A stretch of DNA of 58,338 nucleotides from Spongiibacteraceae bacterium. GTDB lineage: Bacteria; Pseudomonadota; Gammaproteobacteria; Pseudomonadales; Dasaniaceae. Made by a program: the position numbers and the translations under genes. Location: assembly GCA_028280715.1 (NCBI GenBank), contig JANQLG010000028.1, positions 1-58,338 on the forward strand, read 5' to 3'. The notes below the pieces were generated by a model. It was given only the letters and a program-made list of their open reading frames with translations. It ran no database searches and was not told the origin of the DNA. Shown one piece after another: positions 10,069-50,060 of this stretch (the first letter of the stretch is position 1; each line of letters starts with the position of its first letter).

Positions 10069-10089
10069 AATTAACCTGTTAGCTGTTGA

Positions 10090-10791: not shown

Positions 10792-11923
10792 TCACCGCGG
10801 GAACACCCTCAGCAATGCCAGGCTGATCCGGGTTGCGAACCACTTTATCGCCTTGTGCCAGCCCGTTAGTGACTTCGGTAAAAGTCCAGTCACCGATGCC
10901 CGTTTCGATGGTCTGTTGAGTTAATGTGCTGTCCTCAGTAGAGAATAGCCACACTTTGTTATCTGCCAAAATGACTTCTGTGGGTAAGCGCAATGTTTGT
11001 GGTTTGCTATTGAGGATGACAGTGATATCGGCACTGTAACCAACTAACAGTTCAACTTGTTCGGGAAAATCCAGCAGTTGTACATCCACGTCGACGGTTC
11101 TGGCTTGCTTGGCTAAATCCACCACATAGGGTGCGATGCGAATCACTTCACCACTGAATTCCATATCGCGAAAGGCATCCAGTGTTATTCTGGCAGGCAT
11201 ACCATTTCTGAGTTCGCTGGCATCCACTTCATCAATCGGTGCCGTGACATAGAGACAGGAATAATCAATCAGATCAACTGCTGGTGGTGTGGCCACACCG
11301 GGAGGAGACGGCGTGACATATTCACCGACTTCGCCATTAATTTCAGCGACAATGCCAGCAAAAGGCGCGCGTAACTGTGTGCGTTCAAGTAGCGCCTGTT
11401 GTAATTCAAGGCGTGCTTCGGCAACACCTTGCTGATTTTCGGCGGCATCGCATAAACGCTGTTGCGATTCAGCTGCAGATTGCGTGTTATCGACGTCTTC
11501 TTCAGAAGCTAATGACCTTTCTGCCAACTTGGCAATGCGTTTGGCTTCCCTAGATTTAAGTCCGGCCAAGACACAGGCTGACTCGGCGTCATGTTGTACT
11601 GCTTGAAAATGCTCCTGGGCCTGGGCTAATTCGGCCTGGCGATCACGGTTCCACAATTCTAACAATAATTGCCCCTGCTCAACGCGATCGCCTTCATCCA
11701 CCAGTAAACGATCGACAACTCCTCCTAGAGGCATGGAGAGTTTGGATCGTCGACAGGCTTTGATAGTACCGGCGCGGGTATTGCTAACAGTTGCTTCTAC
11801 GGGGCCGATGCTCACCTCGCTCACTAATACGTCGACAGGTTGTTGCTGAAATCGTTGATAGAAAACAGCAATGCCAATACCCACAATGATTAGTAGGGTG
11901 ATGAAAAAGCGTTTTGCTGTCAT
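10778..11923 (-). CDS. periplasmic adaptor (HlyD/MFP) of the ABC exporter
   Basis: This 381-aa protein is anchored by an N-terminal helix (about 5-22, FFITLLIIVGIGIAVF). A biotinyl-lipoyl-like half (GGVVDRLLVDEGDRVEQGQ), an alpha-hairpin rich in Ala/Glu (about 90-180), the second lipoyl half (RAPFAGIVAEINGEVGEYV) and beta-barrel domains follow. It is the first gene of the four-gene operon and would bridge the permeases to an outer-membrane channel, perhaps the TolC encoded at 27892-29310. A GGGGAGATC ribosome binding site precedes the start. Confidence 0.9.
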   Translation of the reverse strand: MTAKRFFITLLIIVGIGIAVFYQRFQQQPVDVLVSEVSIGPVEATVSNTRAGTIKACRRSKLSMPLGGVVDRLLVDEGDRVEQGQLLLELWNRDRQAELAQAQEHFQAVQHDAESACVLAGLKSREAKRIAKLAERSLASEEDVDNTQSAAESQQRLCDAAENQQGVAEARLELQQALLERTQLRAPFAGIVAEINGEVGEYVTPSPPGVATPPAVDLIDYSCLYVTAPIDEVDASELRNGMPARITLDAFRDMEFSGEVIRIAPYVVDLAKQARTVDVDVQLLDFPEQVELLVGYSADITVILNSKPQTLRLPTEVILADNKVWLFSTEDSTLTQQTIETGIGDWTFTEVTNGLAQGDKVVRNPDQPGIAEGVPAVIDDD

Positions 11924-12152
11924 GTGATCTCCCCGCAGAATGTTGTAGATAATAGTGAGTTAGCGAATTAGCATAAAGCAAAACTGGATAGAAACAGCCC
12001 GAATATATCAATAAATAGCCGACTTTATAACAGCTAAATGATGCCGTTTTACTCATCATGTGTCTGAGTAACTTAAGCAATAGCCGAAGTGATAGAACTG
12101 TGTTGCCACAGTAAAGAAATTGAGTCGTAAGTTAGAAAGACGGAATGGTTAT

Positions 12153-12596
12153 TCAATGAGTGACTGATACAAGTACACCGGCCATTACCAATGCTGCTCC
12201 AAGCAATTTGCGAGTATTTAGCGGGTCACTGGGGACTTTAAATAATTGAAAATGGCTGACTAGCATCGCCATAATGATCTGGCCGGCAATAATAAGAATA
12301 AAAAGTTGTCGTGCTCCCAAAATCGGCATTAAGTAAGTCATCCCGAAGATCATCAGTGCACTCATAATACCGGAGAGAAATAGATAAGGCGGAATCGTGC
12401 TGACTTTTTTCATGGTGTCAAAGGGCACGAATATCGCCAATAAAAGCACAGTGGTTAGCAAGCCAATCATGTAGAACACAATATTAGCGGCTATAGCGGA
12501 GTCCAGATGTTTTGAAATCTGTCCATTCATTGGCATGTAAATGGCAACAATAGCTCCAAGTGCGATTGCCATCGCCATATAAGCAAATGTTTGCAT
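12153..12596 (-). CDS. YdcZ-type (DUF606) small DMT-superfamily transporter
   Basis: This 147-aa membrane protein has five hydrophobic helices and the family features GxxxxxxxxxNGQISKHLDS near the start and GxxLVMAGV near the end. DUF606/YdcZ proteins are half-size members of the drug/metabolite superfamily and often work as dimers. It stands alone on the minus strand behind the exporter operon, with no regulator close by. The substrate is unknown. Confidence 0.85.
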   Translation of the reverse strand: MQTFAYMAMAIALGAIVAIYMPMNGQISKHLDSAIAANIVFYMIGLLTTVLLLAIFVPFDTMKKVSTIPPYLFLSGIMSALMIFGMTYLMPILGARQLFILIIAGQIIMAMLVSHFQLFKVPSDPLNTRKLLGAALVMAGVLVSVTH

Positions 12597-34819: not shown

Positions 34820-35965
34820 TTGGCAATCCGATCTCTGATACTGATTCTTGGCTTTTCATTTCTAACGCTGGCTTGTTCTGAAGCAACGCCTCCCTCAATG
34901 CCTACCATAGAAGTTGTGGTGACACCTGCGGCTATGCTGCCCTATCAACCTCGAGGTAGCTTTGTAGGTCGTCTTGAGGCTCAGGAAAATGTCAGTATCC
35001 AAGCAAGAGTCAGTGGTTATTTAATCCAACGTACATTTAAAGATGGGCAAATAGTCAATAAGGGCGACGAGCTGTATGTGATTGATCCTGCTCCCTTTGA
35101 GGCCAGTTTGGCAGAGGCAGAAGCAGAGGTTGATAGGGTAGAAGCTCGAGTGGCGGTAGCCGGTCGCAATTATGCGCGAGGAAAACAACTGGTAGAAAGT
35201 GGCACCATTTCGGCCTCACAAATGGATGAATTAGAGGGCACTGATCTGGAAGCTAAAGCGGCATTAAAGGCAGCGACTGCAACACGTGATAACGCCAAAA
35301 TTAACCTCAGTTACAGCAGAATTGTTGCACCTATCGATGGCCAGATTGGGCGTAGCAGCTTTAATGTTGGCGATTTAGTAAGCCCTGAGTCAGGGGTATT
35401 GACGACACTGGTTAATACCAATGCCATGCAGGCTGTCTTCTCGATTGATGAAAAACTGCTATTAGAAGTACGCAATCGCCGCCTTAATGAAAGTTTGCCC
35501 AATCCGACAGAGCAGGTAGAGGTATTAATCGAATTATCCGATGGCACACTTTACCCGCATAAGGGGCATGTAGATTTTCTAGATAACCGCGTTAATGAAG
35601 GCACGGGAACTATTGAGATAAGAGCCACGATACCTAACCCGGATAATCTTTTAGGGCATGGTCAGTATGTCAGGGTTGTCGTGCAGGAAATCGCTGTCAA
35701 TGATGTGTTAATGGTGCCGCAGGCGACTATACAGTCCGATCAAGTAGGTGATTATGTGTTGACAGTTAATGATGAAAATAAAGTGCAACGAAAAAACGTT
35801 GAACTAGGCGACAGAGTAGAGCAATACATAATCATCTCGCAAGGGCTGGAGACCGGAGAAAACGTTATTTTGCAGGGCTTACAAAAAGTCAAAGTCGGTC
35901 AGACCGTTAATGTTAAACAACTGAATAATAATCCTGCATCAGTGAATGACTCGCCACAGGCCTAG
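34820..35965 (+). CDS. RND efflux periplasmic adaptor, lipoprotein
   Basis: This 381-aa MFP protein has a lipobox (LTLAC, Cys19), a lipoyl domain split around a hairpin ([20 protein letters not shown] and [20 protein letters not shown]) and a beta-barrel and membrane-proximal domain. AcrA-like features are clear. The start is TTG at 34820, with AGGAGG five bases upstream. It is followed after 11 nt by the RND pump gene. No local TetR repressor is seen. The divergent 245-nt region upstream shows no obvious operator. Confidence 0.92.
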
Positions 35966-35976
35966 GGAAGGTTAGC

Positions 35977-38900
35977 ATGTTCAGTGCATTTTTTATTGAT
36001 CGACCAAAGTTTGCTTTGGTGATTTCAATTGTCCTGACATTGATGGGGGCGCTTGCGATTAATTTGCTGCCTATAGCTGAATATCCACAGGTGGCACCTC
36101 CTCAGGTCACGGTTGCTGCCAATTATCCCGGAGCTTCTGCGGAGGTTGTAGAGCAAACCATAGGTGGGCCGTTAGAGGAAGTTATTAATGGTGTTGAAGG
36201 CATGATATATATGTCTTCAAGGAGCGCTAACGATGGCAGCTATTCATTAAATATTACCTTTGAGCTGGGGCAGGATATTGATGCGGCGCTAAGTCGGGTA
36301 CAAAACCTGGCTAAGTTAGCCGAGCCCAAGCTGCCGCAGGAAGTCAGAAATCAGGGTATGAGTATCGATAAAGTCTCACCTGATATTTTGATGATCGTCA
36401 GTTTTTTCTCACCAGATGAGTCGCTGGATTACGCTTTTCTTTCCAATTACGTCAAAATCAATATTCAAAACCGTTTAAAGCGAATTCAAGGCGTTGCGCA
36501 GGCGACTATTCTTGGTGCTGCTGATTATTCCATGAGGCTGTGGTTAGACCCGAGTCGAATGAGTCATTTAGGTGTCGCTGTTAACGATATTTTATCTGCA
36601 TTGCAGGAACAAAATGTTCAGGTTGCTGCAGGAAAAATCGGCGCTCCTCCCTTCGAAGGAAATTTACAAACACAATATACGCTGCAGACCAAAGGCCGAC
36701 TGTCAGAGCCAGAAGAATTTGAAGAGATTATTATTCGCTCAGGGCAGGATGGTGCAGCCATTTATTTGAGAGATGTTGCCACCGTTGAGTTGGGGCAGGT
36801 GGATTACAGTGTAGTTGGCGAATTTAATAATAACCCTTCGGCTAATGTCGCATTGTATTTAGTACCGAATGCCAATGCATTGACAACGGGTGAAGAAATC
36901 AAGCGTGTGTTGGCAGAAATGTCTGACCAGTTTCCGCAGGGCCTGACCTATGAAGTGGGCTATGACACGACCCGGTATGTTAATGTGGCGATCAATCAGG
37001 TTGTTGTGAGTTTATTGCAGGCAGTGGGATTAGTGATTCTGATTACCTTTGTATTTCTTGGTAATTTAAGAATGACGTTAATTCCGGCCATAGCGATTCC
37101 CGTTTCATTGATTGCCAGCTTTGCTGTGTTATTAGCGATGGGCATGTCGATTAATACGATCACCTTGTTTGGGTTGGTATTGGCGATTGGTATCGTAGTG
37201 GATGACGCCATTTTGGTTATCGAAAATGTTGATCGACATTTGCGGAGTGATAGCGCGCTGACAGTAAAGGAAGCGACACGAATTACGATGCGAGAAGTGT
37301 CAGGGCCAATTTTGTCAACAACACTGGTATTGCTGGCGGTATTTATTCCGGTAGCTTTGTTGCCAGGCATTACAGGACAAATGTATCGGCAATTTTCAGT
37401 GACGATTTGTGTCGCTGTCTGCTTTTCGTCTTTAAACGCATTGACGTTAAGTCCGGCCCTGGCTTCTTTAATTCTTAAGGGTGGAGAAAAAGAAGATCGG
37501 GCTTGGTATCGCACGTTTAATACGGGTTTTGACAAAATACGAAAAAATTATGATCGAGGTGTCAGTTGGATTGTCAGGCGTACGGCAATTGTAACCATCA
37601 CATTTGTTGGTGTTGTCGTGGCAACAGGTATTGGTTTTATTTCCGCGCCGACTGGTTTTGTTCCGCCCGAGGATAAGGGGGCGTTGTTAATTAATGTGCA
37701 GTTACCTGATGCCGCTTCACTACAGCGCGCTGAAGAAACGGTCGATAAAGTCGCAGAGTTGGTTAAAAGTATAGAAGGCGTTGAGAGCGTGACTGCTATT
37801 ACAGGCTTTAGTATTTTAACTGGGGCTGCACAAAGCAATGCCGGAACGTTGTTTGCGGTATTGGATCACTGGGATGATCGCCCTGGTTTACAGAATAGTG
37901 TTTTTGCCATTACAAGAAAAATCAATGGTATGGCCTATATCAATATTCCAGAGGCACAAGTCTATGCTATGTCACCGCCAGCTGTTCCGGGTATGGGTGT
38001 GGCAGGTGGGCTGGAAATGATTCTGGAAGATACCTTATCCCGTTCACATAAAGAATTAGCGGCAGTAATGAATGACTTTATTGTTGAAGCCAATAATCGT
38101 CCGGAATTGACTGGTGTCTTCACTTCTTTCCGCGCCAATGTGCCGCAATATTTTGTAGATGTCGATCGCCAAAAAGCTAAAGACTTAGGCGTTTCCCTAA
38201 ACGATTTGTTTCTAACTTTGCAAGCCAATCTGGGATCGCTTTATATCAATGATTTTAATAAATTTGGTCAAACCTATCGTGTGATGATGCAGGCAGAATC
38301 TTCCTATCGTTCAGATTTAAATGACCTTTCCAGTTTGTTTGTCCGTTCTGCCAATGGAGAGATGATTCCTATTTCAACACTGGTTAGCACACAGCCAATT
38401 TTAGGCCCTGAAGTTGCAGAGCGTTATAACATGTATCGCTCTGCACTGATTCGTGGCAACCCCAACAGTGGTTATAGCAGTGGTGATGCTATCGCTACTA
38501 TGGATGAGTTGGCAGATAGTATTTTGCCAGACGGTTATCAAACAGAATGGACAGGTATGACATTTCAGGAAATTGAGGCAGGGAGTCAGGCCATTTATGC
38601 CTTTGCAATTGCCTTTATTTTTATTTATCTGTTTTTGGTTGCTCAATATGAAAGTTGGTCAATTCCTTTAACGATTATCATGGTGGCGCCTATCGCCATT
38701 TTGGGTGCAATAACTACTATTCATTTACTGAGTTTTCTACAGCTTAACCTCTATGCGCAAATTGGCATTGTATTATTGATTGGTATGGCCGCGAAGAATG
38801 CGATTTTAATCGTTGAATTTGCTCGACAAAAAAGAGAACAGGAAAACGCATCAATAATAGAGGCTGCCAGTAGTGCCGCCTCGCTTCGTTTTCGTGCAGT

Positions 38901-39117
38901 CAACATGACGGCAATGAGTTTCATATTAGGTATTCTGCCATTGGTATTTGCCAGCGGAGCAGGAATGTTCAGCCAAATGTCTCTTGGTTTGACAGTGCTT
39001 AGTGGCATGTTGGCAGTATTGCTAATCGGTACTTTTTTAATTCCAGGTTTTTATGTGTTGATCCAGAGCAACAGAGAGTCATTAAAGGCAAAACTGGGAA
39101 TTAACGCGGATGAATAA
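35977..39117 (+). CDS. RND efflux pump, HAE1 (AcrB) type
   Basis: This 1046-aa inner-membrane proton antiporter has twelve predicted helices. The start [20 protein letters not shown] is the family's usual N-terminus. The helix 4 motif [14 protein letters not shown] carries the paired Asp that relay protons, and [14 protein letters not shown] is the helix 10 Lys motif. It pairs with the adaptor upstream and probably uses the TolC encoded 6 kb away. The substrate range cannot be read from the sequence. Confidence 0.96.
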
Positions 39118-39135: not shown

Positions 39136-39157
39136 AAAAAAGGCCCCTCGCGGGGCC
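39136..39157 (-). terminator. rho-independent terminator for the globin operon
   Basis: On the minus strand, GGCCCC-GCGA-GGGGCC is followed by six T, 36 nt after the globin stop. On the plus strand there is no T-tract after the stem, so it serves mainly the leftward operon. Confidence 0.85.
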
Positions 39158-39193: not shown

Positions 39194-39610
39194 TTAAGCA
39201 ACTTCTTCGTATGCTGCCTTGGTCATCGTGCTGGCGAGAATACCGTAAGCAGCTGCCCAGGCAGCTTTAACCTCTTCAGTGAATGCTTCACCTAAACCCA
39301 TTTCAAGCGTTTTCAGTAAAGCGGCACCAACTGTATCGTAGTGGCTCGCTTCAACGCCATAATCCACATGACGTACAGCCAGCTTTTCGACAACAGGGAC
39401 TAATTGGTCTAGACGATCTAATAAACGTACGGCAGCAGTAATCATTTCCATGAGTTTTTTACCTTGCTCAACCATATCGCCTTTGAATAAATTTTTAAGT
39501 GTAGGATCGGCTTCAAACAGATTGCCGTAAAAAAGTGCAGCAGCATCATCGGCGATGGGTTCTACTTTTGCCCAACTGCTTTTGCAGAGTTGTATTTGTT
39601 CAGGGGTCAT
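39194..39610 (-). CDS. single-domain globin
   Basis: This 138-aa protein is a full globin fold like Vitreoscilla haemoglobin: MTPEQIQLCKSSWAKVEPIAD, LFYGNLFEADP (Tyr at the B10 region) and VRHVDYGVEASHY with proximal His81. It lacks the reductase domain of flavohaemoglobins. It closes the five-gene electron-transfer operon read from 44061. Related single-domain globins bind oxygen or detoxify nitric oxide when supplied with electrons by a partner reductase. Here the NirB-like flavoprotein at 42043 is a possible donor, but they may lie on different sides of the membrane. Confidence 0.92.
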   Translation of the reverse strand: MTPEQIQLCKSSWAKVEPIADDAAALFYGNLFEADPTLKNLFKGDMVEQGKKLMEMITAAVRLLDRLDQLVPVVEKLAVRHVDYGVEASHYDTVGAALLKTLEMGLGEAFTEEVKAAWAAAYGILASTMTKAAYEEVA

Positions 39611-39658
39611 TGTTTTTGCTCCATTAAAATAAAATAAAATTTCTTTCTATTAACGCAA

Positions 39659-40003
39659 TTACTCCAGAGCTGAGAGCATAAACTCTATAATCAATTGCAA
39701 ATCGTCATCAGTCAGTTCGGTATTGCCACCTTTGGCTGGCATTAGGCCAAAGCCTTCACTGGCGTGTTGAACTAAAGTTGTTATATCTTGAGATGCTCTT
39801 GGTGCCCACATTTTTTGATTGCCAAGGATTGGTGCGCCATTAATACCTTGAGCGTGGCAGACTTTGCAGTTCTTTGTGTAAAGCTCTTCACCTTTGCTGG
39901 CTGCTTGTGTGGAGCTACTGCTAGCCGTTGCCTGTTCTGATGGTTGTTCACTGCAAGCAGTGAACAACATCATTACAATGATTGGTAGCAATAAGCGTGT
40001 CAT
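39659..40003 (-). CDS. monohaem cytochrome c lipoprotein
   Basis: This 114-aa protein has a lipobox (MLFTAC, Cys16) and one class I haem site, CKVCH (near 46-50), with a distal Met likely in GLMPAKGG (near 87). It is a small periplasmic electron carrier tethered to a membrane. It stands fourth in the operon, 48 bp before the globin gene and 32 bp after the Tll0287-like gene. Confidence 0.9.
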   Translation of the reverse strand: MTRLLLPIIVMMLFTACSEQPSEQATASSSSTQAASKGEELYTKNCKVCHAQGINGAPILGNQKMWAPRASQDITTLVQHASEGFGLMPAKGGNTELTDDDLQLIIEFMLSALE

Positions 40004-40035
40004 TGTTTATCCTCGAAAGCTTTGATTATTTTCCC

Positions 40036-40614
40036 TTAAAGAGAAAGAGGAACGCGGATAACAACACCGCCCATCACTTCACCCAATACGAAGTCAGTAC
40101 GAGGCGTATCCTTATGCTCGTTGTGACATTTAGTGCAAGCCTCTGATACAGCAACATCAGGATAAACTGCAGTGAAATAAGTCGCGTCGCCCAATGTTTC
40201 TTCACCGTAAAAATTTTCACCGGGATTTGCAGCAATATATTCTAGGCCCTCTTTTTCCATCGGTGTTTTGGGTGCGTTTTGTTTGTTGATAGGCCAAATA
40301 GATTGTAGAGAATAGGTAAACTCGTCAGTTATTTCTGCTACAGCTTCTGAGCCTGCGCGAAACATTTGTGCAGGCAATAATGTTCCATTAGGAATATCTT
40401 GCCAGTGTTCATCCGGTTTTATTGCGCCGACGCCATTGGGCCCTAATCGTTGTACGACCAGTTTCGTATAGTTGGCTCTATCTGCATTCATTACTGCAAA
40501 TAAAGAATCCGTATAAAGTTTTGGTTCGATACCCGTTGATACAGGCTCCTGATTACATGCAGAAAGCGCTAATAATGATCCCAATACTGCAGTAGCTTGT
40601 ATTACCTTTTTCAT
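40036..40614 (-). CDS. Tll0287-like (DUF3365) haem lipoprotein
   Basis: This 192-aa protein has a lipobox (ALSAC, Cys20) and a single C-terminal c-type haem motif CTKCH (near 157-161) in the context of the Tll0287/DUF3365 fold: IAANPGENFYGEETLGDATYFTAVYPDVAVSEAC broken over 128-157. Proteins of this fold often act as haem sensor or redox domains in the periplasm. It lies between the eleven-haem cytochrome and the monohaem cytochrome in the operon. Confidence 0.87.
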   Translation of the reverse strand: MKKVIQATAVLGSLLALSACNQEPVSTGIEPKLYTDSLFAVMNADRANYTKLVVQRLGPNGVGAIKPDEHWQDIPNGTLLPAQMFRAGSEAVAEITDEFTYSLQSIWPINKQNAPKTPMEKEGLEYIAANPGENFYGEETLGDATYFTAVYPDVAVSEACTKCHNEHKDTPRTDFVLGEVMGGVVIRVPLSL

Positions 40615-40654
40615 GTGTTACCCCTCGCAACAAGTCTATAAAATTAAAATCTAA

Positions 40655-42031
40655 CTATTTATCAACTTCGCGTTTTAAAGCCCAATCTATCGAAGGAATA
40701 TGCTTCGATAGTTTTCCTGAGAAATTATTTTTGATTAGCGTTTCGTCTGCTAATGCATCAATGGAAAATTCCAAGCTATGACATTGCATGCAAACGGGCC
40801 TAATCATTTTCTCGTTTGGCCGTAAATAAAAATTTTGATTATGTTCAACGCGAACATTTATTTCTCTTTCAGAATTCCCTTCTTTATTATTTTTGTTAAC
40901 AATTTTTATGCCAGTGTTTTGATCTGCCACTCTAGGAAGGTGACAAGTGGCACATGAAACGGCATTTTCGGGGTCAATATCGCCTAAACTAGCGGATTGC
41001 CACAGTTTTCCATGTGGAGAATTTTTAAATGCAAGACTGTGTTCATCGTTATGGCATGTTAAGCAAGCCTCAGTTGCAGCAAATTGTGTATTGAATTCGT
41101 GCGCTGCATGGCAACTGTTGCACCCGTGCTGTGCGTTAAGTGAGCTGTGTTTGAAGTCCATAGGCGAATCCATGGGGCGAACAGCGGGGAGTTGTGTTTC
41201 GAGTTTGGGCGATAAACGCATGCCATGTTTACTGGCAAGAAAGCCTTCAGCTTCCTGTTGGTGACATTGTTGGCACTGTTGTAGTGCAGGCCTTTCTATC
41301 CACTCGGAATTATTTTCTGTTGTGTGGCAGCCGCTGCAACTGACACCTGCTTGTGCATGAGAGGTTGCCGACCAGTGCTGGGTAATTTCCGGATGTGATA
41401 CAGAATATTGTTGATCGATGCTCTCATTTTTTATCACAGGGTTTTGTGCTTTGCTTAATGCTGCATTACTAGGCGCACTAATGCGTGCGATGTCATCCAG
41501 CCAGGGTTTATTGGCATGCTGCACCAGAAAGCTTTCATACAATGCACGATTGTCATGAAAGTTATGACAGCCTGCACTGGCACAACTATCGAAAGCTAGA
41601 TCTTTATGGCTTTCGCGCTCATCACTAATTTCCTTGTGACAGTGGTAACAGTAGTCATCTGGCAAGGTCACACCCATGGCATGTGTTTGTTCTTCCTGGT
41701 GTTCGGTATGACAACTGATGCAATAACGTGCATCGATAATTTCTAATCGATATGCCTCTCTGGGGTCAGTGAATTTTTTCTTGGGATGTGAATCGTGCGC
41801 TTGTTCTAACTCCTCTGCATGACAATTCACACAGGCATTTTGTATTACTTCCTCACCGCCAAAAGCTTCTGTATGACAACTACTACAGGCCAGCTCAATT
41901 TGATAATGACCATGGCTGGTTTCTCCGATTAATAGTTGAGATTTATCCTCTTTAATCAATAAGGTGTAGGCAAAGTAACTGCCAATAGCTAAGGTCAAAA
42001 AAATCCAAAGCGACCAGGTAATTTTTTTCAT
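40655..42031 (-). CDS. eleven-haem membrane-anchored cytochrome c
   Basis: This 458-aa protein is anchored by an N-terminal helix (about 5-24). I count ten CXXCH sites (CSSCH, CVNCH, CISCH, CYHCH, CSGCH, CQQCH, CNSCH, CLTCH, CATCH, CMQCH) and one CX4CH (CASAGCH, fifth in order). Numerous other His can serve as distal ligands. Haems are grouped in pairs, as in cytochrome c3-type and NrfA/OTR-like wires. The gene starts 11 bp after the flavoprotein gene, so the two are probably co-translated. It could carry electrons across the periplasm or be catalytic. I cannot assign it to a described enzyme. Confidence 0.9.
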   Translation of the reverse strand: MKKITWSLWIFLTLAIGSYFAYTLLIKEDKSQLLIGETSHGHYQIELACSSCHTEAFGGEEVIQNACVNCHAEELEQAHDSHPKKKFTDPREAYRLEIIDARYCISCHTEHQEEQTHAMGVTLPDDYCYHCHKEISDERESHKDLAFDSCASAGCHNFHDNRALYESFLVQHANKPWLDDIARISAPSNAALSKAQNPVIKNESIDQQYSVSHPEITQHWSATSHAQAGVSCSGCHTTENNSEWIERPALQQCQQCHQQEAEGFLASKHGMRLSPKLETQLPAVRPMDSPMDFKHSSLNAQHGCNSCHAAHEFNTQFAATEACLTCHNDEHSLAFKNSPHGKLWQSASLGDIDPENAVSCATCHLPRVADQNTGIKIVNKNNKEGNSEREINVRVEHNQNFYLRPNEKMIRPVCMQCHSLEFSIDALADETLIKNNFSGKLSKHIPSIDWALKREVDK

Positions 42032-42042
42032 GCGTTACCAGC

Positions 42043-44061
42043 CTAAAAATAATAAACAGTCGTGATATGGGCAATCAGCAAAATAGGCAAGGGCCAGCTA
42101 ACCAGCAGATGCAGCCAGGCTAATCCCTTGCGCACACTTTGGCTTTGTGCTGGTTTTAGATGGTGACTCATTGCAACCGACATGCCTGCAATAGCACCCA
42201 GACCAATAACTAATAAGAAATTAATCATCAGGTATTGATTGAGATTGCTGCCCAAATGAAAACCGGTATGGATAATAAGTATGGAAACACATAGCAAACC
42301 CAATACGATGTGGAAAATGCGCCAAAAGGCGAACTCCCCGAGCCGGGCACTATTGATGCGCTTACGTATTGACATCAGTAGACCAATTGCAGATAAGCCG
42401 AGCAGGGTGAAACCCGATACCTGCTTCCAGAATTTGTCGTTCCAGTATTGCTGCAGTGGTGCATTTTCCTGAACGGTGTCGGGAATGACAAAACCGGGAA
42501 TAAAATAAATAAGTGCAGCAACAGCGAGGGCGACCAGGCTGGACATTAAAACCAGTGGCCAGGCCTTCTCTTTCTCTGGTGGCCCTTGATAACCAGTTAA
42601 TTGTTGCAGCAGTGGTTTACAGGAGCCGCATACGGTGCCGGCACCAGTCGCTTCAGATAATGCTTCACGTGTAGTGCAGCCATTTTCAATCGCTTCAACT
42701 AATGTTCCCTGACAGACGCTATTGCACTGACAGACAATCGCTGCCTTGGGCCATAAGTTGACATCATTAGAAGCATCATTGAGCCATAGTTTGCCTTTGG
42801 TTCGAAACCACCAAAGTTGCCACGGCATAACACGACGATTTTGTTGTAACAGTTCCTGAATTCTTGGCAGTTCGGGCCAGTCGCCAATGCCTAACATGCC
42901 GACCAGGCGGCCACGTCTGATGACCAGTTTGCGATAAATGCCATCGGCACGATAAATCATTTCACGTTCAGATCCATAACGGGGAAAGTCGGTGATCTCT
43001 CCCTGGCTGACAACGTGTTCACCTACCACTTTTAATCGCGATTGTTGTTGTGAGCCCGCGTAATGGGATTGCCCGCCGGTAATCACATCGGCAACTATGG
43101 CTGCCTGTTCTAGCCCTGGAGCTACCAGGCCATAGGTTTGTCCGTTAAATTCACAGCATTCACCGATAGCAAAAATATTCTCATCTGAGGTTTTAAGTTG
43201 ATCGTTGACAACAATACCTTTGCCAATTTTCAGTTTTGCTTCTCGCGCTAATTCGCTGTTAGTGGTGATGCCGGTACAAAACAGTACCGTATCACAGGCA
43301 ATTTTTTCGCCTGCTCGAGTCGTAATTGCTTCAACACGGTTCATGCCATGTACGACACGAACGCCTGAACTCAACATAACGTTTATATCAAGCGCTTGTA
43401 ATTTTTCCAGCAGTTGTGACGATGCTTCGTCGTCAAGCTGGCGATTCATGAGTCGATCACTCTGCTGTATCAGAGTGACTTTTGTATTTAGTCGTTGTAA
43501 TGCGCGAGCCGCTTCAATACCCAACAGTCCGCCGCCAACAACGACAATATGTTTAGAGCTTGATAAGCGCGCATACAGCGCATCGGTATCTTTTAAATTA
43601 CGAAAGGTGTAAACCCCTGTTTGTTCTATGCCGGGAATATTGGGCACGAAGGGTCTTGAGCCGGTGGCGATAACCAGTCGTTCGAAATAATAATTTCGGT
43701 CCAGTGTATCGGTTATCTGTCTGGATTCAGGTGAAATTTGTTTAATTGCGCAAATAACAAATTGAAAATTCGGATACTTTGTTACGTCCGGCATATCTAA
43801 TGCAATGTCATTGCGATCGACATCACCTGCCAGTACTGATGAAAGTTGTACCCGGTTATAGGGTGCGTAGGGTTCGTTACCAAATAGGGTGATATTGGCA
43901 TCGGGTTGGCGAGCTAACATTTCGTGTACAAAACGCATGCCAGTAGGGCCGCTGCCGATCACGACGATACGTGGATAGTTATCGGTATTAACTAAGGGAA
44001 TGGTAGAGGGTTGTTGTTCACTGCTCGCTTGAATGTCAGTGTTAGCTGCTGTGGTCGACAT
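42043..44061 (-). CDS. NirB-like FAD/[2Fe-2S] oxidoreductase fused to a membrane domain
   Basis: This 672-aa protein has two Rossmann motifs, VIGSGPTGMRFV (about 34-45) for FAD and VVVGGGLLGIEAA (173-185) for NAD(P)H, and a BFD-type [2Fe-2S] module with C444, C446, C478 and C481. This half resembles the N-terminal part of assimilatory nitrite reductase NirB. The sirohaem domain is missing. Instead residues 500-672 form about five membrane helices with His584, His598, His602, His651 and His665, which could bind b-type haem. It is first in the operon. I infer NAD(P)H to FAD to [2Fe-2S] to haem b to the periplasmic cytochrome. Confidence 0.9.
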   Translation of the reverse strand: MSTTAANTDIQASSEQQPSTIPLVNTDNYPRIVVIGSGPTGMRFVHEMLARQPDANITLFGNEPYAPYNRVQLSSVLAGDVDRNDIALDMPDVTKYPNFQFVICAIKQISPESRQITDTLDRNYYFERLVIATGSRPFVPNIPGIEQTGVYTFRNLKDTDALYARLSSSKHIVVVGGGLLGIEAARALQRLNTKVTLIQQSDRLMNRQLDDEASSQLLEKLQALDINVMLSSGVRVVHGMNRVEAITTRAGEKIACDTVLFCTGITTNSELAREAKLKIGKGIVVNDQLKTSDENIFAIGECCEFNGQTYGLVAPGLEQAAIVADVITGGQSHYAGSQQQSRLKVVGEHVVSQGEITDFPRYGSEREMIYRADGIYRKLVIRRGRLVGMLGIGDWPELPRIQELLQQNRRVMPWQLWWFRTKGKLWLNDASNDVNLWPKAAIVCQCNSVCQGTLVEAIENGCTTREALSEATGAGTVCGSCKPLLQQLTGYQGPPEKEKAWPLVLMSSLVALAVAALIYFIPGFVIPDTVQENAPLQQYWNDKFWKQVSGFTLLGLSAIGLLMSIRKRINSARLGEFAFWRIFHIVLGLLCVSILIIHTGFHLGSNLNQYLMINFLLVIGLGAIAGMSVAMSHHLKPAQSQSVRKGLAWLHLLVSWPLPILLIAHITTVYYF

Positions 44062-44103: not shown

Positions 44104-44142
44104 GAAAAAAAGGGTTAAGCCGCATAAAGCAGCCTAACCCTT
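44104..44142 (-). terminator. rho-independent terminator after the porin gene
   Basis: On the minus strand AAGGGTTA and TAACCCTT pair around inner GGCTGC/GCGGC-like pairs, and seven T follow. It lies 28 nt after the porin stop, separating the nrt-porin unit from the flavoprotein operon. Confidence 0.8.
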
Positions 44143-44169: not shown

Positions 44170-45363
44170 TTAGTACTTGGCGCCTACCCATACCCACAGG
44201 ATCTCTTTGTCACTGCCGAAGTCATCAGCGGAATAGTCAGCGTATTTAATACCGCCGCTGTAATTTTTAGTGAAGGCTTTTGTCGCTTGAAAATTAAATT
44301 CATCACCGTAATCTAAGCTGCCTTCGTCCGACTCATACTCGTGATAAACAGCTAGCAGATTTACGCCACCGAATTTTTTGGTAGAAAGAGTGATATAGGT
44401 GTCGTCTATACCGTTACCGCCAGCAATTGTGCCGAACAGTGAACCGCCTAGGAAAACATCAGCCCAGCCCTGAAATTTATGTACAGTTGCTAAAGGCGTT
44501 TGAAAGTTTTCTATGCCGTCATCGGAGCCCAGTACTTCGTTAGTGATTTTTGCTGTGAAGCCAGCTGCAGAAACGCCTAATTCAACCAGACTGTAGTCTG
44601 TATCAACATCGGCAGTTTCGTTGTCCTGTGTAGCAAACTCTAATGCATACAGAAATTTCACATCTTCACCGGTTGAGCCAGTGAAACTTACACCGTAAGT
44701 ATCAGTTGCATCAAAGCCACCTTCTTGTGAAAGCGAATAGCCGTAACCGACTAACTTACCGAAAGGTGTTTTATAGGAAATATTCAGTAATGTATGGTCT
44801 GGAGAGTCGACATCGTCAAACGTAGGAGAATTGATACGGTTAACTTTGTAAATATATGAAAGGTCAACTGACAGATCTTTCATTGGTGTAAGTGTTAAAC
44901 GTGCCGCATCAAAGGTTTGCCAATCTTGGCGCCAGCCGACATGACCAACATGTCTGTGACCATCATAAGTTAAAATCTGACGTCCGACCTTGGCAGTAAG
45001 CATGTCATTTTTGTATTGGATGAATGCTTGGTCAACTTCAGTGTTCTCAGTTTCAGGTATCAAGCCATTCTCATCATCAATACCTAGCACGTCACGTACA
45101 TCTTCAACCGCTACAGTAGCTGAAAAACCTTCATAGGAACCAGTGGTATAACTGAGTAGCGTACGCATTGTCAGGCTGTCACTATCATTGTCGCCAAGTT
45201 CTACATCTTCGTAGCGAATATGAATGTCTAAACTGGCTTTTCCTGCAGTAATGGCATCAGTGATCGCATCGGCTAATACCGTTTGTGAAAATAGTGTGCT
45301 AAGTGCGATAGCTGAGGTACCGACAATGCCGGCCATCAGTGATTTGTGTTTGTTTGAGTTCAT
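44170..45363 (-). CDS. outer membrane porin
   Basis: This 397-aa protein has a signal peptide (about 1-32, ending TVLADA) and alternating beta-strand pattern throughout, ending in an aromatic residue (VWVGAKY) as needed for BAM insertion. Acidic loops and strands such as AFIQYKNDMLTAKVGRQIL resemble alginate-export/OprD-like porins. It lies 71 nt downstream of nrtC on the same strand and is probably part of the nitrate uptake unit, letting anions through the outer membrane. The solute is inferred from context only. Confidence 0.88.
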   Translation of the reverse strand: MNSNKHKSLMAGIVGTSAIALSTLFSQTVLADAITDAITAGKASLDIHIRYEDVELGDNDSDSLTMRTLLSYTTGSYEGFSATVAVEDVRDVLGIDDENGLIPETENTEVDQAFIQYKNDMLTAKVGRQILTYDGHRHVGHVGWRQDWQTFDAARLTLTPMKDLSVDLSYIYKVNRINSPTFDDVDSPDHTLLNISYKTPFGKLVGYGYSLSQEGGFDATDTYGVSFTGSTGEDVKFLYALEFATQDNETADVDTDYSLVELGVSAAGFTAKITNEVLGSDDGIENFQTPLATVHKFQGWADVFLGGSLFGTIAGGNGIDDTYITLSTKKFGGVNLLAVYHEYESDEGSLDYGDEFNFQATKAFTKNYSGGIKYADYSADDFGSDKEILWVWVGAKY

Positions 45364-45433: not shown

Positions 45434-46294
45434 TTAGGCGGCTTTTTCCTGGCCGTCTTTGTTAGTTTTTTTTGCGGAACTGTCTGCTGTAATGTGCTCT
45501 ACTTTTCGTTGTTTTTCATACAAGAAGCGTAGAACTTCAGAACGAAGACGGTTGTATTCCACATCGTTGGCTAACTCCAAGCGACTACGAGGTCTTTCCA
45601 GTTTGATATCGAGGATTTCGCCGATAGTGGCAGCTGGTCCATTAGTCATCATGACAATACGATCGGATAATAAAACCGCTTCATCTACATCGTGAGTAAT
45701 CATAATGACGGTGTTGTTCAGTTCCGCTTGAATTTCCATCAGCGAGTCCTGCATGTGGGCGCGGGTAAGGGCATCCAAAGCGCCAAAGGGTTCATCCATT
45801 AACAAGACGTCGGGCTGCATGGCCAGAGCTCTGGCAATACCGACACGTTGCTTCATACCTCCCGATATTTCATCGGGGCGTTTGTGCATGGCGTGATCCA
45901 TATGCACTAGTTTCAAATTATGTTCTATCCATTCCTTGGTTTCTCTCTTGCTTTTTGATTTACCAAAAACTTGTTTAACGGCTAATTCAACATTTTCATA
46001 GGCGGTTAGCCAGGGCAAAAGCGAGTGATTCTGAAACACAACGGCACGTTCCGGGCCGGGTTCAGTCACTTCCTTATCATTCAAGATAACACCGCCGCGA
46101 GTGGCTTGATACAAGCCGGCAACGATATTAAGTACGGTCGATTTACCGCAGCCTGAGTGTCCAATCAGTGAAACAAATTCGCCTTTGCTGATTTGTAAAT
46201 CTACACCCTTTAGTGCAGTAAAGGAGCCCTTCGGAGTTGGAAACTCCATATCTACTTGGCTGATGTTTAATAATACGCTCATAGTGTTCTCCAA
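45434..46294 (-). CDS. nrtC: nitrate-type ABC transporter ATPase
   Basis: This 286-aa protein has Walker A GHSGCGKST, Q-loop FQNHSLLPW, signature ISGGMKQRVGIARAL, Walker B VLLMDEPFGALD and H-loop ITHDVDEA. These match NrtD/NrtC/SsuB-type ATPases. It lacks the extra solute-binding-like domain of cyanobacterial NrtC, so a NrtD name would also fit. It is 15 bp downstream of the permease gene. Confidence 0.9.
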   Translation of the reverse strand: MENTMSVLLNISQVDMEFPTPKGSFTALKGVDLQISKGEFVSLIGHSGCGKSTVLNIVAGLYQATRGGVILNDKEVTEPGPERAVVFQNHSLLPWLTAYENVELAVKQVFGKSKSKRETKEWIEHNLKLVHMDHAMHKRPDEISGGMKQRVGIARALAMQPDVLLMDEPFGALDALTRAHMQDSLMEIQAELNNTVIMITHDVDEAVLLSDRIVMMTNGPAATIGEILDIKLERPRSRLELANDVEYNRLRSEVLRFLYEKQRKVEHITADSSAKKTNKDGQEKAA

Positions 46295-46309: not shown

Positions 46310-47308
46310 CTAGCGGGATGCTGAGGATTTATCCCAGGAGGCCCAGCGTTGAACTTGCAACATAGTGCGATCAAGCAGGAAGCCTATGAAGCCGATGACA
46401 ACGACGGCAGCCATGATACGACTCAGAGATTCAGAACTGCCATTTTGGAATTCATCCCAGACAAATTTTCCCAGCCCGGGATTTTGCGCCAGCATTTCAG
46501 CTGCGATAAGCACCATCCAGGCAACGCCAAGTGATAAGCGCATGCCGGTAAAAATTGCAGGTACTGATGCGGGTAAAACAATTTTTTGTACGTGTTTTAG
46601 TGCCGGCAAGCGAATAACGCGGCTTACGTTGACTAAATCGTTATCTATAGAAGCAACGCCAACAGAAGTGTTAATGACCATTGGCCAGATGCAGCATAGT
46701 GTAACCGTTATTAGCGAATTTAAAAAAGACTTGGCTACCATTGGATCAGGTGATACATACAGAGCACTGACAACCATGGTTACCAATGGCAGCCAAGCTA
46801 GCGGAGACACTGGTCTAAAAATTTGGATAATTGGATTAACTGCAGTGTTTAATGTTTTGCTTAAACCGATGGCAATACCCAGTGGGATTGCAAGAAATGC
46901 TGCGAGGAAAAACCCGCTCATTACAGTCAATAAGCTGGTAAATATTTGATCGAGAAAAGTTTCTTTACCGGTATATTTTCTGATTCTGGGTTCGTAAGTT
47001 GGGTCTTGTGCAACGCGCTTGGCATTGCGTTCTTCTTGCCTTTCGTAAAAAGCCGCAGCCTTTTCCCTTTCGGCAATATGCTCGTTATAAAGTGAACCAA
47101 ACTGCTCATAAACAGCGGCAGGCCCAGGAAATTTTCCGAGAGAGGTATCGATGTTTTGTGCTGCTGTTCCCCATAATAAAAGGAACACAGCAATACCCAT
47201 CATGGGAATTCCGATCAATTGCAAAGCATTATTTAAAATGTTTTGTCCTTGCGATGGCGCAGCAGTTGAGCTAAACAACTTGCCTACCGATGTGATTACT
47301 GTATTCAT
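46310..47308 (-). CDS. nrtB: nitrate-type ABC transporter permease
   Basis: This 332-aa protein has a BPD_transp_1 domain with about six helices and a long, charged insert (about 80-120) between the first helix and the core. The EAA-like loop is near VSRVIRLPALKHVQKIVLPASVPAIFTGM (split at 228-256). Marks such as FRPVSPLAWLPL are typical of the NrtB/TauC group. It follows nrtA by 47 nt, where a stem-loop lies at the nrtA stop. Confidence 0.91.
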   Translation of the reverse strand: MNTVITSVGKLFSSTAAPSQGQNILNNALQLIGIPMMGIAVFLLLWGTAAQNIDTSLGKFPGPAAVYEQFGSLYNEHIAEREKAAAFYERQEERNAKRVAQDPTYEPRIRKYTGKETFLDQIFTSLLTVMSGFFLAAFLAIPLGIAIGLSKTLNTAVNPIIQIFRPVSPLAWLPLVTMVVSALYVSPDPMVAKSFLNSLITVTLCCIWPMVINTSVGVASIDNDLVNVSRVIRLPALKHVQKIVLPASVPAIFTGMRLSLGVAWMVLIAAEMLAQNPGLGKFVWDEFQNGSSESLSRIMAAVVVIGFIGFLLDRTMLQVQRWASWDKSSASR

Positions 47309-47346: not shown

Positions 47347-47369
47347 GAGACGCGCTTAGAGCACGTCTC
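47347..47369 (-). other. stem-loop at the nrtA stop codon
   Basis: On the minus strand GAGACGTGC and GCGCGTCTC form a stem with one mismatch around a TCTAA loop that contains the nrtA stop. No T-tract follows in the reading direction. Such hairpins between binding-protein and permease genes often protect the upstream mRNA and raise the binding protein level. That role is inference. Confidence 0.5.
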
Positions 47370-48762
47370 CTTTTTTCAGGCCAATATTGAAGCTATTGAT
47401 GTAGTCGTTTGGCTTGGTGCCGTCATAAACGATGTCATCAATAAATTCTTTTTGTGGTGGTTTAAAGCCTGTTTCTGTTTCGAAGTCAGGAAAGTCTTTA
47501 GCATCCATTAAGCCTTCATCGATTAAAGACTGGGCGGCTTTTGAGTAGATGTCTGGGCGGTAAACTTTCTTCGCCATGTCGACATACCAGCTGTCAGGTT
47601 TGGTTTCGCTGATTTGGCCCCAGCGGCGCATTTGTGTCAGGTACCAAATTGCATCGGAGTAGTAAGGGTAAGTAGCGTTGTAACGGAAGAATACGTTAAA
47701 GTCAGGCACTTCACGCTTGTCACCTTTTTCATATTCAAAGGTGCCAGTCATGCTGTTAGCAATAACATCGTAGTCTGCACCGACATAGTTTGATTGTGAA
47801 AGAATTTTCACAGCTGCAGGACGGTTGGCGTTATTGTTTTCATCTAACCATTTAGCTGCACGAATTAGCGCACGTGTTAGACGAATGGTTGTGTTAGGAT
47901 ATTTTTCTGCAAATTCTGCAGTAATGCCGAATACTTTTTCTGGGTTGTTCTTCCAGATTTCATAATCAGTAATAACTGGAACACCAATACCTTTAAATAC
48001 TGCCTGCTGGTTCCATGGTTCACCTACACAGTAACCGTAGATAGTACCGGCTTCCAATGTGGCTGGCATTTGCGGTGGTGGTGTAACAGATAACAATGCA
48101 TCTGCATCAATCTGACCGGATGTATCACCTTTGTGTGGTGCGTAGTAGCCAGGGTGAATGCCACCAGCAGCTAACCAGTAACGCAACTCGTAGTTGTGAG
48201 TTGATACCGGGAAAACCATACCCATGTTAAAAGGCTTGCCGTCGGCCTGGTATTTTTCAACAACAGGTTTTAAGGCATCAGCTTTGATGGGGTGAACAGG
48301 GCGACCATCATCCATTTTCGGAATATTGGGTTTCATCTGTTCCCAAATTTCGTTAGATACGGTGATGCCGTTGCCATTTAAATCCATTGAGAACGGCGTA
48401 ATGATGTGTGCTTGTGTACCAAAACCCATAGTGGCTGCAATGGGTTGGCCCGCTAGCATGTGAGCGCCGTCCAGACTGCCATCGATCACGCCATTCAATA
48501 AAACTTTCCAGTTAGCTTGTGCTTCGATAGTGACGTAAAGGCCTTCATCCTCGAAGTAGCCGTTTTCATAGGCAATAGCGATAGGGGCCATATCAGTTAA
48601 TTTGATAAAGCCAAATTTTAATTCTTCCTTTTCAGGCCAACCTAATTCCTCTGCTAGCGTCTGGTTACCGGCGAAGGCCAAACCGACACTGGCTACACAG
48701 GCGGCTATCTTGGCGATTCCGTTTTTCTTGAATCGCTTCAGAGATGATCCGAGATGTTTCAT
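47356..48762 (-). CDS. nrtA: nitrate-type ABC transporter substrate-binding protein
   Basis: The 468-aa product is of the NrtA/CmpA/TauA group: [49 protein letters not shown] and [19 protein letters not shown] set the start at the ATG at 48762 with GGAG eight bases upstream. A frame from 48807 has no ribosome binding site. The N-terminus is a basic stretch and a signal peptide ([24 protein letters not shown] near 30-45 of the longer frame). A sigma-54 promoter lies 103 bp upstream. Nitrate is the likeliest ligand, but nitrite, cyanate or bicarbonate relatives exist. Confidence 0.9.
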
Positions 48763-48864
48763 GCGTTTCTCCAGCTGGTGTGTTAATACGGTTATATTTT
48801 TTTTCATAACGATTAAATTGAGGTTTAAATTAATTCGTTACGAGTTTCTTTTCGTAACAGTTTT

Positions 48865-49199: not shown

Positions 49200-50060
49200 T
49201 TACCTCAGCAACTCATTGAAAAACATGTTATCGATTTGCTGGATGCAGTATCCCAGTGCTTGCCAGCGGCTATTAATAATATCTGTGGCGATATTAAATA
49301 GATGGTTGCCGTTAATATTGATATCGGGCGTGTCTAATATTTGGATTTGGATACTCAGCAGCAAGCGGTGTAACGGTTTGTTGTGTTGCTGGATTGAATC
49401 TCTAATCGGTTGCAGACTGAAGGGTGTTTCCAGTTCTTCAAAGGATTGCAGTAATAGTTGTTGTCTTTCGGGAATTTCTTTCAATAAAAAAGCAATCCGG
49501 GCATGCGACTCCTGTCCACAGGCTTTGACGATTGCCGCGTTAGTGCTGAGGCCCCTCAGTTTAGCCAGGTGTTCGATATTATCGAATAAGCCATCGATCA
49601 ATATTGGCAAAAAGCTGGTGGTGATTTTTGGTGTTGGGTCACTGGCTAAAAAATCCTGCATACACTTACGGATCAGACGTTTCAGTTCATCAACCAGATG
49701 ACCGTGAAATTCAAAGTTATGCATGATCTGGTCTTGTTTCCAGCCAATTAAAATCGTATCCCAATTGGTGACCAGACTGTCGATTATGTCTTGCCTGAGT
49801 GGAATCAGGTGGTCGCTATTTTGGTTTTTGATCAGGTAAATAAGCCGTGGAATATCCAGCTGCAATTGGCTGATGCGCTCCATAAAGGAATAATCACCGC
49901 CTAAAAAGGCCATTGTCGCACCGCGATGCTGCTGTACGGCCCGGGTTAATTGACAGAGCAGCTTTATAGTTACCAGGTAGTAGTGTTGTTGGTAGAAAGC
50001 TGGATCTTCTGCTTCTAAGTGGTGAGTGTTTGCATCAATGTTGGGCACGGCAATGATCAT
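49200..50060 (-). CDS. soluble NIT-like nitrate-sensing domain protein
   Basis: This 286-aa helical protein has no signal peptide, membrane segment or output domain. Two NIT-type signatures are seen: RAVQQHRGATMAFLGGD (about 40-56) and a repeat-like LRGLSTNAAIVKACG (about 168-182), with a final helical bundle. NIT domains bind nitrate or nitrite in NasR and in sensor kinases. Here the domain stands alone just upstream of nrtABC on the same strand, suggesting a diffusible sensor or partner. The family call is from pattern recognition. Confidence 0.7.
   Translation of the reverse strand: MIIAVPNIDANTHHLEAEDPAFYQQHYYLVTIKLLCQLTRAVQQHRGATMAFLGGDYSFMERISQLQLDIPRLIYLIKNQNSDHLIPLRQDIIDSLVTNWDTILIGWKQDQIMHNFEFHGHLVDELKRLIRKCMQDFLASDPTPKITTSFLPILIDGLFDNIEHLAKLRGLSTNAAIVKACGQESHARIAFLLKEIPERQQLLLQSFEELETPFSLQPIRDSIQQHNKPLHRLLLSIQIQILDTPDININGNHLFNIATDIINSRWQALGYCIQQIDNMFFNELLR

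Follow-up and report, generated by a model that had tools for sequence, protein, structure and literature searches.

A window of 58,338 nucleotides, the whole stretch of DNA that was analysed (positions 1-58,338 of contig JANQLG010000028.1; assembly GCA_028280715.1, Spongiibacteraceae bacterium), contained on its minus strand five co-directional genes separated by gaps of 11, 40, 32 and 48 bp, as an earlier note on this DNA had described. Three of them, nirBm, mhc and tll, form the conserved unit, and the genes for a monohaem cytochrome c and a globin are optional, which narrows the five-gene unit of that note. In the direction of transcription, the genes are as follows (aa, amino acids):

42043..44061, minus strand: nirBm, a NasB/NirB-like FAD/NAD(P)H and BFD [2Fe-2S] protein with a C-terminal four-histidine b-haem membrane domain (672 aa, read from 44061 to 42043; sirohaem domain absent)
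40655..42031, minus strand: mhc, an eleven-haem cytochrome c with an N-terminal membrane anchor (458 aa)
40036..40614, minus strand: tll, a Tll0287-like (sCache_heme) monohaem lipoprotein (192 aa; PF11845, E 4e-18)
39659..40003, minus strand: cytc, an accessory monohaem cytochrome c lipoprotein (114 aa; Cytochrome_CBB3, E 5e-15)
39194..39610, minus strand: glb, an accessory single-domain globin without export signal (138 aa; PF00042, E 2.3e-18)

The three-gene redox module is real, widely conserved and apparently undescribed, its components being of known kinds and their combination new. Its conservation was followed in two samples, both biased towards the window and with 11 loci in common. 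The first consisted of at least 26 relatives, namely those among 293 genomes of the same order in which the listed nirBm match covered the membrane half; together with the window's own genome they make up 27 core genomes, set against 266 others. The second consisted of the best 80 of 406 candidate relatives that an mhc profile retrieved at E 1e-3 from 84,980 species genomes, and from these 80 loci 70 nirBm, 76 mhc and 78 tll proteins were extracted (L161 and L162 being identical in mhc). In all 26 listed same-order relatives with full-length nirBm, mhc and tll followed this gene in the same order and on the same strand, so that the co-occurrence of the three genes goes beyond chance. Similarly, at 50 bits or more nirBm was present in 79 and tll in 79 of the 80 loci, and both in 78, the exceptions being L173 (Bryobacterales), with the membrane half of nirBm only (173 aa), and L174, where the contig ends before any tll. 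The core is thus not scattered among relatives, nor is it rare. Median gaps amounted to 11 bp between nirBm and mhc (65 loci) and 46.5 bp between mhc and tll (76 loci; L116, in which the nirBm frame ends early, excluded from both counts). Distances between the proteins were correlated over 62 loci (L116, L139, L173 and L179 excluded), with values of 0.81 for nirBm-mhc, 0.57 for mhc-tll and 0.53 for nirBm-tll. Judged by the record titles, most carriers are Gammaproteobacteria from the sea, and a few are bins assigned to Burkholderiales, Gallionellaceae, Nitrospirota, Bryobacterales and Poribacteria (such assignments can be wrong); cultured carriers occur in the genera Alcanivorax, Marinobacter and Spongiibacter. 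Even sampling across the phylum yielded mhc at E 1e-60 in 3 of 398 genomes, the window's own included.

The nirBm protein combined Pyr_redox_2 (E 1.4e-60), Rubredoxin_C and Fer2_BFD (E 3e-10) domains in a family search. It thus shares the FAD, NAD and BFD [2Fe-2S] modules of the NirB/NasB flavoproteins, but differs from these in the absence of the sirohaem domain and the presence of a C-terminal membrane domain for two b-haems. A function as NirB nitrite reductase was rejected, as NIR_SIR was not among the 14 Pfam matches and TIGR02374 was matched with 369.5 bits, below the cut-off of 578.35, over profile positions 1-470 of 794. Four membrane histidines (H584, H598, H651 and H665) and the four BFD cysteines (444, 446, 478 and 481) were invariant in 54/54 aligned sequences, and the H-X13-H motif occurred twice in the membrane half of 69 of the 70 extracted proteins. 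Two histidines 14 residues apart on each of two helices are the usual layout for two b-haems across a membrane. The membrane half also occurs by itself (L173:9466-9984, from the Bryobacterales bin), with mhc and tll immediately behind it and NasA- and NarK-like genes before it. At L060:9297-10856, L061:9278-10654 and L064:8925-10316, soluble proteins of 458-519 aa related to nirBm (41-45% identical) were encoded, with neither a membrane half nor mhc or tll; those of L060 and L061 sit where the core is found in L042-L045, as judged from gene lengths and one common neighbour. In L059 (genome G152, 9051-12459), of the same genus as the window, the full order nit-nrtABC-porin-core-cytc-globin was present, with nirBm broken into three frames and mhc into two; these broken frames are likely assembly errors, since NirB of this genome is split too.

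The eleven haems that the earlier note had counted in mhc were borne out by ten CXXCH motifs and one CX4CH motif, the ten and a CX4CHN.H motif being kept in 76/76 relatives extracted from the 80 loci. Beside the 11 proximal histidines, 11-12 further conserved histidines were found (alignment A3, 65 rows), enough for all haems to be bis-histidine-ligated as far as can be read from the sequence, which argues against, without excluding, a catalytic haem. The structure model (predicted local distance difference test, pLDDT, 75.4; partly of low confidence) had only four matches in the PDB, all of the HAO family (E 1.0e-3 to 5.1e-3), with template-modelling (TM) scores of only 0.24-0.31. Among 27 weak multihaem matches of the mhc profile, NrfA and octahaem nitrite reductases appeared at E values near 1e-8 to 1e-7, the matched stretches being short. 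The HAO/NrfA/octahaem cytochromes are among the closest known families, from which mhc is set apart by its 11 haems, with histidines available for all. Two other identities were rejected. A DmsE/MtrA-type decahaem cytochrome is contradicted by a TIGR03508 score of 44.7 bits against a cut-off of 192.2. NrfA as a simple partner receiving electrons from mhc is removed because PF02335 remained without match (at E 1e-20 or the cut-off) in 27/27 core genomes, the window's own among them, with a positive E. coli control.

These parts, namely the FAD/NAD module, the BFD cysteines, the two H-X13-H pairs, the anchored 11-haem protein and the lipoprotein haems, agree with the anatomy of a NAD(P)H-to-periplasm conduit that the earlier note had proposed. 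The architecture of this electron conduit is well supported, and the electron acceptor is one that we infer. The reading preferred here is a tentative one, its probability falling just short of even: nirBm, mhc and tll would export electrons from NADH to periplasmic haems for the handling of nitric oxide (NO) or nitrite, and the globin would clear NO from the cytoplasm. In a first step, the cytoplasmic half of nirBm, in which the motifs are present, would oxidize NAD(P)H via FAD and pass the electrons to the BFD [2Fe-2S] centre. These would then cross the membrane via two b-haems on the two H-X13-H pairs, after which the anchored mhc, with its 11 haems, would carry them into the periplasm. From there they may reach tll, with cytochrome c joining where present. 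The purpose, which is the weakest step, would be the handling of NO or nitrite arising in nitrate assimilation; a cytoplasmic globin, or a truncated haemoglobin with its own reductase, would remove NO inside, and the haem wire would reduce or buffer N-oxides outside. Outward electron flow from NADH would be downhill and aided by the membrane potential, and the reverse flow would be neither. An unlikely possibility is that the module represents a quinone-independent, NADH-driven periplasmic N-oxide (NO/nitrite) reductase that belongs to a new class, with tll as the catalyst and a HAO-like mhc wire and a NirB-derived flavocytochrome b feeding it. If so, this module and the exchangeable cytoplasmic globin would together defend nitrate assimilators against NO in the periplasm and in the cytoplasm.

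The assignment of tll was confirmed by a PF11845 score of 66.7 bits (cut-off 24.1) and the presence of CXXCH, which place it in the sCache_heme (Tll0287-like) class; its residues C159, C162 and H163 were invariant in 54/54 aligned sequences (alignment A5, 54 rows). The structure model (pLDDT 90.6) gave chain 5b82 (Tll0287) as its best PDB match (Foldseek; E 5.2e-5, probability 1.00, TM 0.47/0.54), with GSU0935 (3b42) also among the best; PDB sequence searches with tll yielded nothing useful. The part of the literature source on this family considered here (PMC12889525, a 2026 preprint) describes it as a haem-bearing Cache domain. In it, NO binding by a stand-alone sCache_heme protein with Cys/His ligation was weak, and the protein was taken to have a redox function; a form with membrane helices, linked to HAMP and without axial cysteine, bound NO tightly. 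None of the 78 extracted tll proteins had a cysteine beyond residue 30 outside CXXCH, which excludes them from the Cys/His redox subclass of stand-alone sCache_heme proteins. Hence, tll resembles the NO-binding form of that source in its ligation, since an axial cysteine is absent (0/78), and the redox form in its architecture, since it stands alone; it further differs from Tll0287 in its lipoprotein nature and its association with an 11-haem/NADH module. In the absence of the axial cysteine, the sixth site of its haem may be open to NO. Alternatively, tll could be a sensor with a regulatory output, and the haem wire would only adjust its state with respect to redox or NO. The tight NO binding of the HAMP-linked form speaks for such a role, which is nevertheless very improbable, as tll is a stand-alone lipoprotein without signalling domain, stand-alone forms have been assigned redox roles in the sections considered of PMC12889525, and an 11-haem donor would be odd as an accessory.

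The membrane half of nirBm brings in another candidate. The core may export electrons from NADH to a non-N-oxide acceptor in the periplasm (ferric or cupric ions, for example, or a cytochrome c pool), for instance to win iron for the iron-rich reductases of nitrate and nitrite, in the manner of ferric reductases or MsrQ/NOX-type systems; this we regard as doubtful. NADPH oxidases, ferric reductases and MsrQ are flavocytochromes that take a cytoplasmic reductant and transfer electrons outwards over membrane b-haems, and the cytoplasmic flavin module of nirBm with its two-haem membrane domain resembles ferric reductases in this respect. Unlike them, nirBm has a flavin module of the NirB/rubredoxin-reductase type, an additional [2Fe-2S] centre and a multihaem partner. 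Its membrane half matched DUF4405 at E 0.0024, below the cut-off; among five membrane halves tried, three touched this family (E 0.0015-0.0047) and that of L173 touched Ferric_reduct (E 0.073), all below cut-off. Furthermore, the lipobox of tll was recognizable in 69/78 proteins and its +2 residue was never Asp, which fits the outer membrane, and a globin was absent from 14/80 loci, both of which would suit export to such an acceptor. Its weight is lessened by the globin-type gene within 1 kb after tll in 64/80 loci, by NirB in 27/27 core genomes and by the neighbourhood: of the gene families common to at least 5 of the 80 loci, as judged by eye, the sole hint at metal uptake was a TonB-receptor-like protein, found in seven loci at varying places. 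Further common neighbours belonged to families present in at most 7/80 loci, by their position mostly tied to single lineages (judged by eye).

With regard to the purpose proposed in the preferred reading, nirBm-mhc-tll goes with nitrate assimilation, in the window's genome as well. Upstream of nirBm the following genes were found:

44170..45363, minus strand: porin (Opr/alginate-export-like; PF13372, E 5.4e-9)
45434..46294, minus strand: ATPase of an nrtC-type nitrate ABC transporter (TIGR01184, 353.2 bits, above the cut-off of 291.8)
46310..47308, minus strand: nrtB-type permease (TIGR01183, 167.1 bits, below the cut-off of 209.05)
47356..48807, minus strand: nrtA-type substrate-binding protein (NMT1_2, E 3.2e-96)

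The absence of nitrate and nitrite reductases, as claimed earlier, held for the window, in which neither a molybdenum nitrate reductase nor a second, canonical NirB was present; it did not hold for the genome. On contig C12 (L070:5489-9642), a NasA-like reductase of 727 aa and a fused DmsB-DmsC-like partner of 624 aa were encoded, and contig C21 encoded NirB and NirD together with a transporter of the NarK type, each scoring above its cut-off. The substrate of the NasA-like protein is inferred from kinship because both of its scores were below cut-off (NF047855, 514.5 bits against 1100; TIGR01591, formate dehydrogenase, 595.8 against 666.25); its homologue adjoins nirB in G134, G152 and G166. 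The partner apparently makes this reductase quinol-linked. The proposed link to nitrate assimilation was upheld by the other core genomes. NirB was present in 27/27, being cut or split in G017, G059 and G152, and a NasA-like reductase in 26/27, with the 27th (G011) containing the DmsB-DmsC-like partner of NasA. Moreover, G006 and G049 contained NasA, its partner, nirB, nrtABC, the porin gene and the core, co-directional within about 17 kb, and L164 contained in one run nrtBC, NirB-like, Rieske and NasA-like genes, nirBm, mhc, tll and a globin gene. In L155, nasT lay just upstream of the core and globin gene, followed by nrt genes and, further on, by genes read as Nap-type (4Fe-4S matches). A strict tie to nrtABC or NIT-type genes was rejected when the constant company suggested by the earlier note was checked, since nrtABC lay near the core in only 8/26 listed relatives and 16/80 loci; NasT-like genes did so in 6/26 and 15/80. 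(In the comparison of the relatives' 20-kb loci, the rows for NirB and nasS were cross-matches to nirBm and nrtA and were not used.)

This setting raises the possibility that the core is an electron branch of the assimilatory nitrate reductase, with nirBm acting towards NasA like NasB, NasC or Flp and the membrane and multihaem parts drawing on, or balancing, the quinol or periplasmic pool. The soluble half of nirBm is 41-46% identical to stand-alone flavoproteins of relatives (open frames of 460-525 aa), the core lies beside NasA in L164 and L173, in G006 and G049 the contig with the core carries NasA upstream, and L173 retains just the membrane half of nirBm. In addition, the DmsB-DmsC-like NasA partner, present in 52/293 genomes of the order, was enriched in core genomes (16/27 versus 36/266 others, kinship ignored). 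In 11/27 core genomes, however, this partner was not found: in G088 the matching NasA is cut by the contig end, and in the others NasA is of another type or, in G084, was not placed beside nirB. Furthermore, the reduction of an enzyme in the cytoplasm would not call for eleven periplasmic haems, and electrons flowing inwards to NAD(P) would have to run uphill. A branch towards NasA is quite unlikely.

Of the two accessory genes, cytc was present in 50/80 loci and in 16/26 listed same-order relatives, in 15 of them in place. At the place of the globin gene, the 80 loci contained a single-domain globin (37), a truncated haemoglobin (29; class verified as PF01152 in L035), never both, or neither (14); the 26 listed relatives contained these in 13, 5, 0 and 8 cases. 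Of the 14 loci without globin, two have fewer than 70 bases of contig after tll, and L174 is without tll itself. All 66 globin-type genes were on the strand of the core, 64 of them within 1 kb downstream of tll and two (L165, L169) upstream. On the mhc tree (76 of the 80 loci plus the window), the globin classes required seven changes, at least four of which were forced by well-supported branches, compared with 22 on average for shuffled labels. That two such distant classes replaced each other repeatedly in this position suggests that the binding of NO or O2 is the property that counts. A [2Fe-2S]/FAD/NAD reductase lay beside 26/29 truncated haemoglobins versus 0/51 other loci (kinship ignored); among independent pairs, 3/4 supported ones agreed that the reductase follows the truncated haemoglobin, too few for significance. 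As the globin of the window has no signal peptide, it should be cytoplasmic, and a conduit ending in a globin, as first proposed, is unlikely. Its closest solved chains were 3s1i and 3ubc, which we take to be of Methylacidiphilum origin, and it keeps Tyr28, Phe42, Gln49 and His81 as read from the sequence, presumably the combination typical of NO-dioxygenase globins. The idea that the globin replaces the flavohaemoglobin Hmp was rejected: Hmp exceeded its cut-off in 6/27 core versus 79/266 other genomes (p 0.51, kinship ignored), and it was absent from the window's own genome. In three of the eight listed relatives without globin, a gene for a hemerythrin-domain protein was found about 1.4-1.8 kb upstream of the core (L056:7900-8517, verified as PF01814; L057; L058). 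At L063:9226-11409 (G000:C48), a globin domain 60% identical to the window globin appears to be fused to PAS and chemoreceptor parts, beside genes that by eye are of the che type.

Several observations weigh against the export of electrons for NO or nitrite handling. The nirBm/mhc/tll complex is putative, the mhc model is poor over much of residues 37-162, and a catalytic haem was not identified. In the sections considered of PMC12889525, the measured stand-alone sCache_heme protein bound NO weakly and was assigned a redox role, and since its Cys-to-Ala variant still released NO fast, without tight binding, the NO reactivity of tll is only predicted. Both globin classes were absent from 14/80 and 8/26 loci, and core genomes were not significantly poorer in Hmp. 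With respect to nitrate, a nitrate-linked gene was present in only 26/80 loci (at most 10 kb on each side, many of them contig fragments) and in none of the other 54, NasA was found within the 20-kb loci of 0/26 listed relatives, which counts against an electron branch towards NasA too, and the excess of NirB at E 1e-150 (26/27 core versus 152/266 other genomes; Fisher p 1.7e-5) ignores kinship, as do all Fisher tests used here.

Bacterial NADH electrons are generally thought to reach periplasmic haems via quinones; if the proposed path is true, one NirB-derived, NADH-oxidizing, b-haem protein spanning the membrane would constitute, with its 11-haem partner, a route separate from these. The frequency of the core (406 candidate mhc loci; whole core in 78/80 inspected) adds to its significance, and its nitrate-assimilation neighbours suggest that the carriers possess a specialized means of coping with NO or nitrite as by-products. 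Two globin classes of distant kinship have taken each other's place in one slot of the operon, which makes the role of small globins beside nitrate genes directly testable. In agreement with the earlier note, no description of the gene set was found in the open-licence literature of PubMed Central, which is weak evidence of absence with subscription papers outside its scope. The undecahaem Uet complex, for instance, is described together with a porin and triheme cytochromes in the sections considered of PMC10734462, a different set from nirBm-mhc-tll. The nearest precedent is narK-bjgb-flp-nasC of Bradyrhizobium japonicum, in which, in the sections covered of PMC4724949, a flavoprotein acts together with a single-domain haemoglobin against NO from the assimilatory nitrate reductase, under NasS-NasT control. 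Both systems (nrtABC/narK-bjgb-flp-nasC and the present one) share the nitrate-assimilation context, a single-domain haemoglobin and an NAD(P)H flavoprotein, and NasT-type genes lie near some relatives of the core. Indeed, the globin gene of the window is part of the unit behind nrtABC, and that of L164 belongs to a run that also includes NirB- and NasA-like genes. Unlike nirBm, Flp is described as a typical cytoplasmic oxidoreductase, and a b-haem membrane domain, an 11-haem cytochrome and a Tll0287 protein are unmentioned in the sections covered (PMC4724949); also, NasA of the present strain is encoded outside the five-gene operon. As far as those sections go, the Bradyrhizobium precedent supports the role of the globin and not that of the haem wire.

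Finally, two terminator-like hairpins flank the five genes:

44110..44142, minus strand: terminator-like hairpin between porin gene and nirBm, candidate leader control (14 pairs, 7 of them GC, T tail)
39142..39157, minus strand: terminator-like hairpin after the globin gene (6 GC pairs, T6 tail)

As a consequence of their position, nirBm to the globin gene may form one bounded transcription unit with leader control. The core block had been placed directly after the nitrate uptake genes, but the porin gene (45363-44170), which occurs in the same 8/26 listed relatives' loci as nrtABC, and the hairpin (44142-44110) lie between nrtC and nirBm. This hairpin had a fold z of -3.10 and was equally stable in 2/200 shuffles. 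In the region, 17 terminator-like sites were found versus 12.6 (standard deviation 3.4) in shuffles, so that only the 14-pair hairpin stands out and shorter sites weigh little. A leader terminator as a general trait was rejected, as a perfect hairpin preceded nirBm in 4/66 loci, compared with 1/66 after shuffling and 4/76 in an internal control. The sole strong cases, L157 and L176, had perfect 17-bp hairpins with T-rich tails ending 19 and 29 bases before the nirBm start codon, possibly for leader control. Further upstream, the NIT label given earlier to the protein encoded at 50060-49200 could not be kept: PF08376 was matched at E 0.15 (12.9 bits, cut-off 24.9) over profile positions 1-21 only, and no confident family match was obtained. 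Relatives of this protein (49200-50060) were encoded near the core in L047, L048 and L059. On the other side, at 34820-39117 of the plus strand, two genes convergent with the five-gene unit were read by eye as an RND-type efflux pump.

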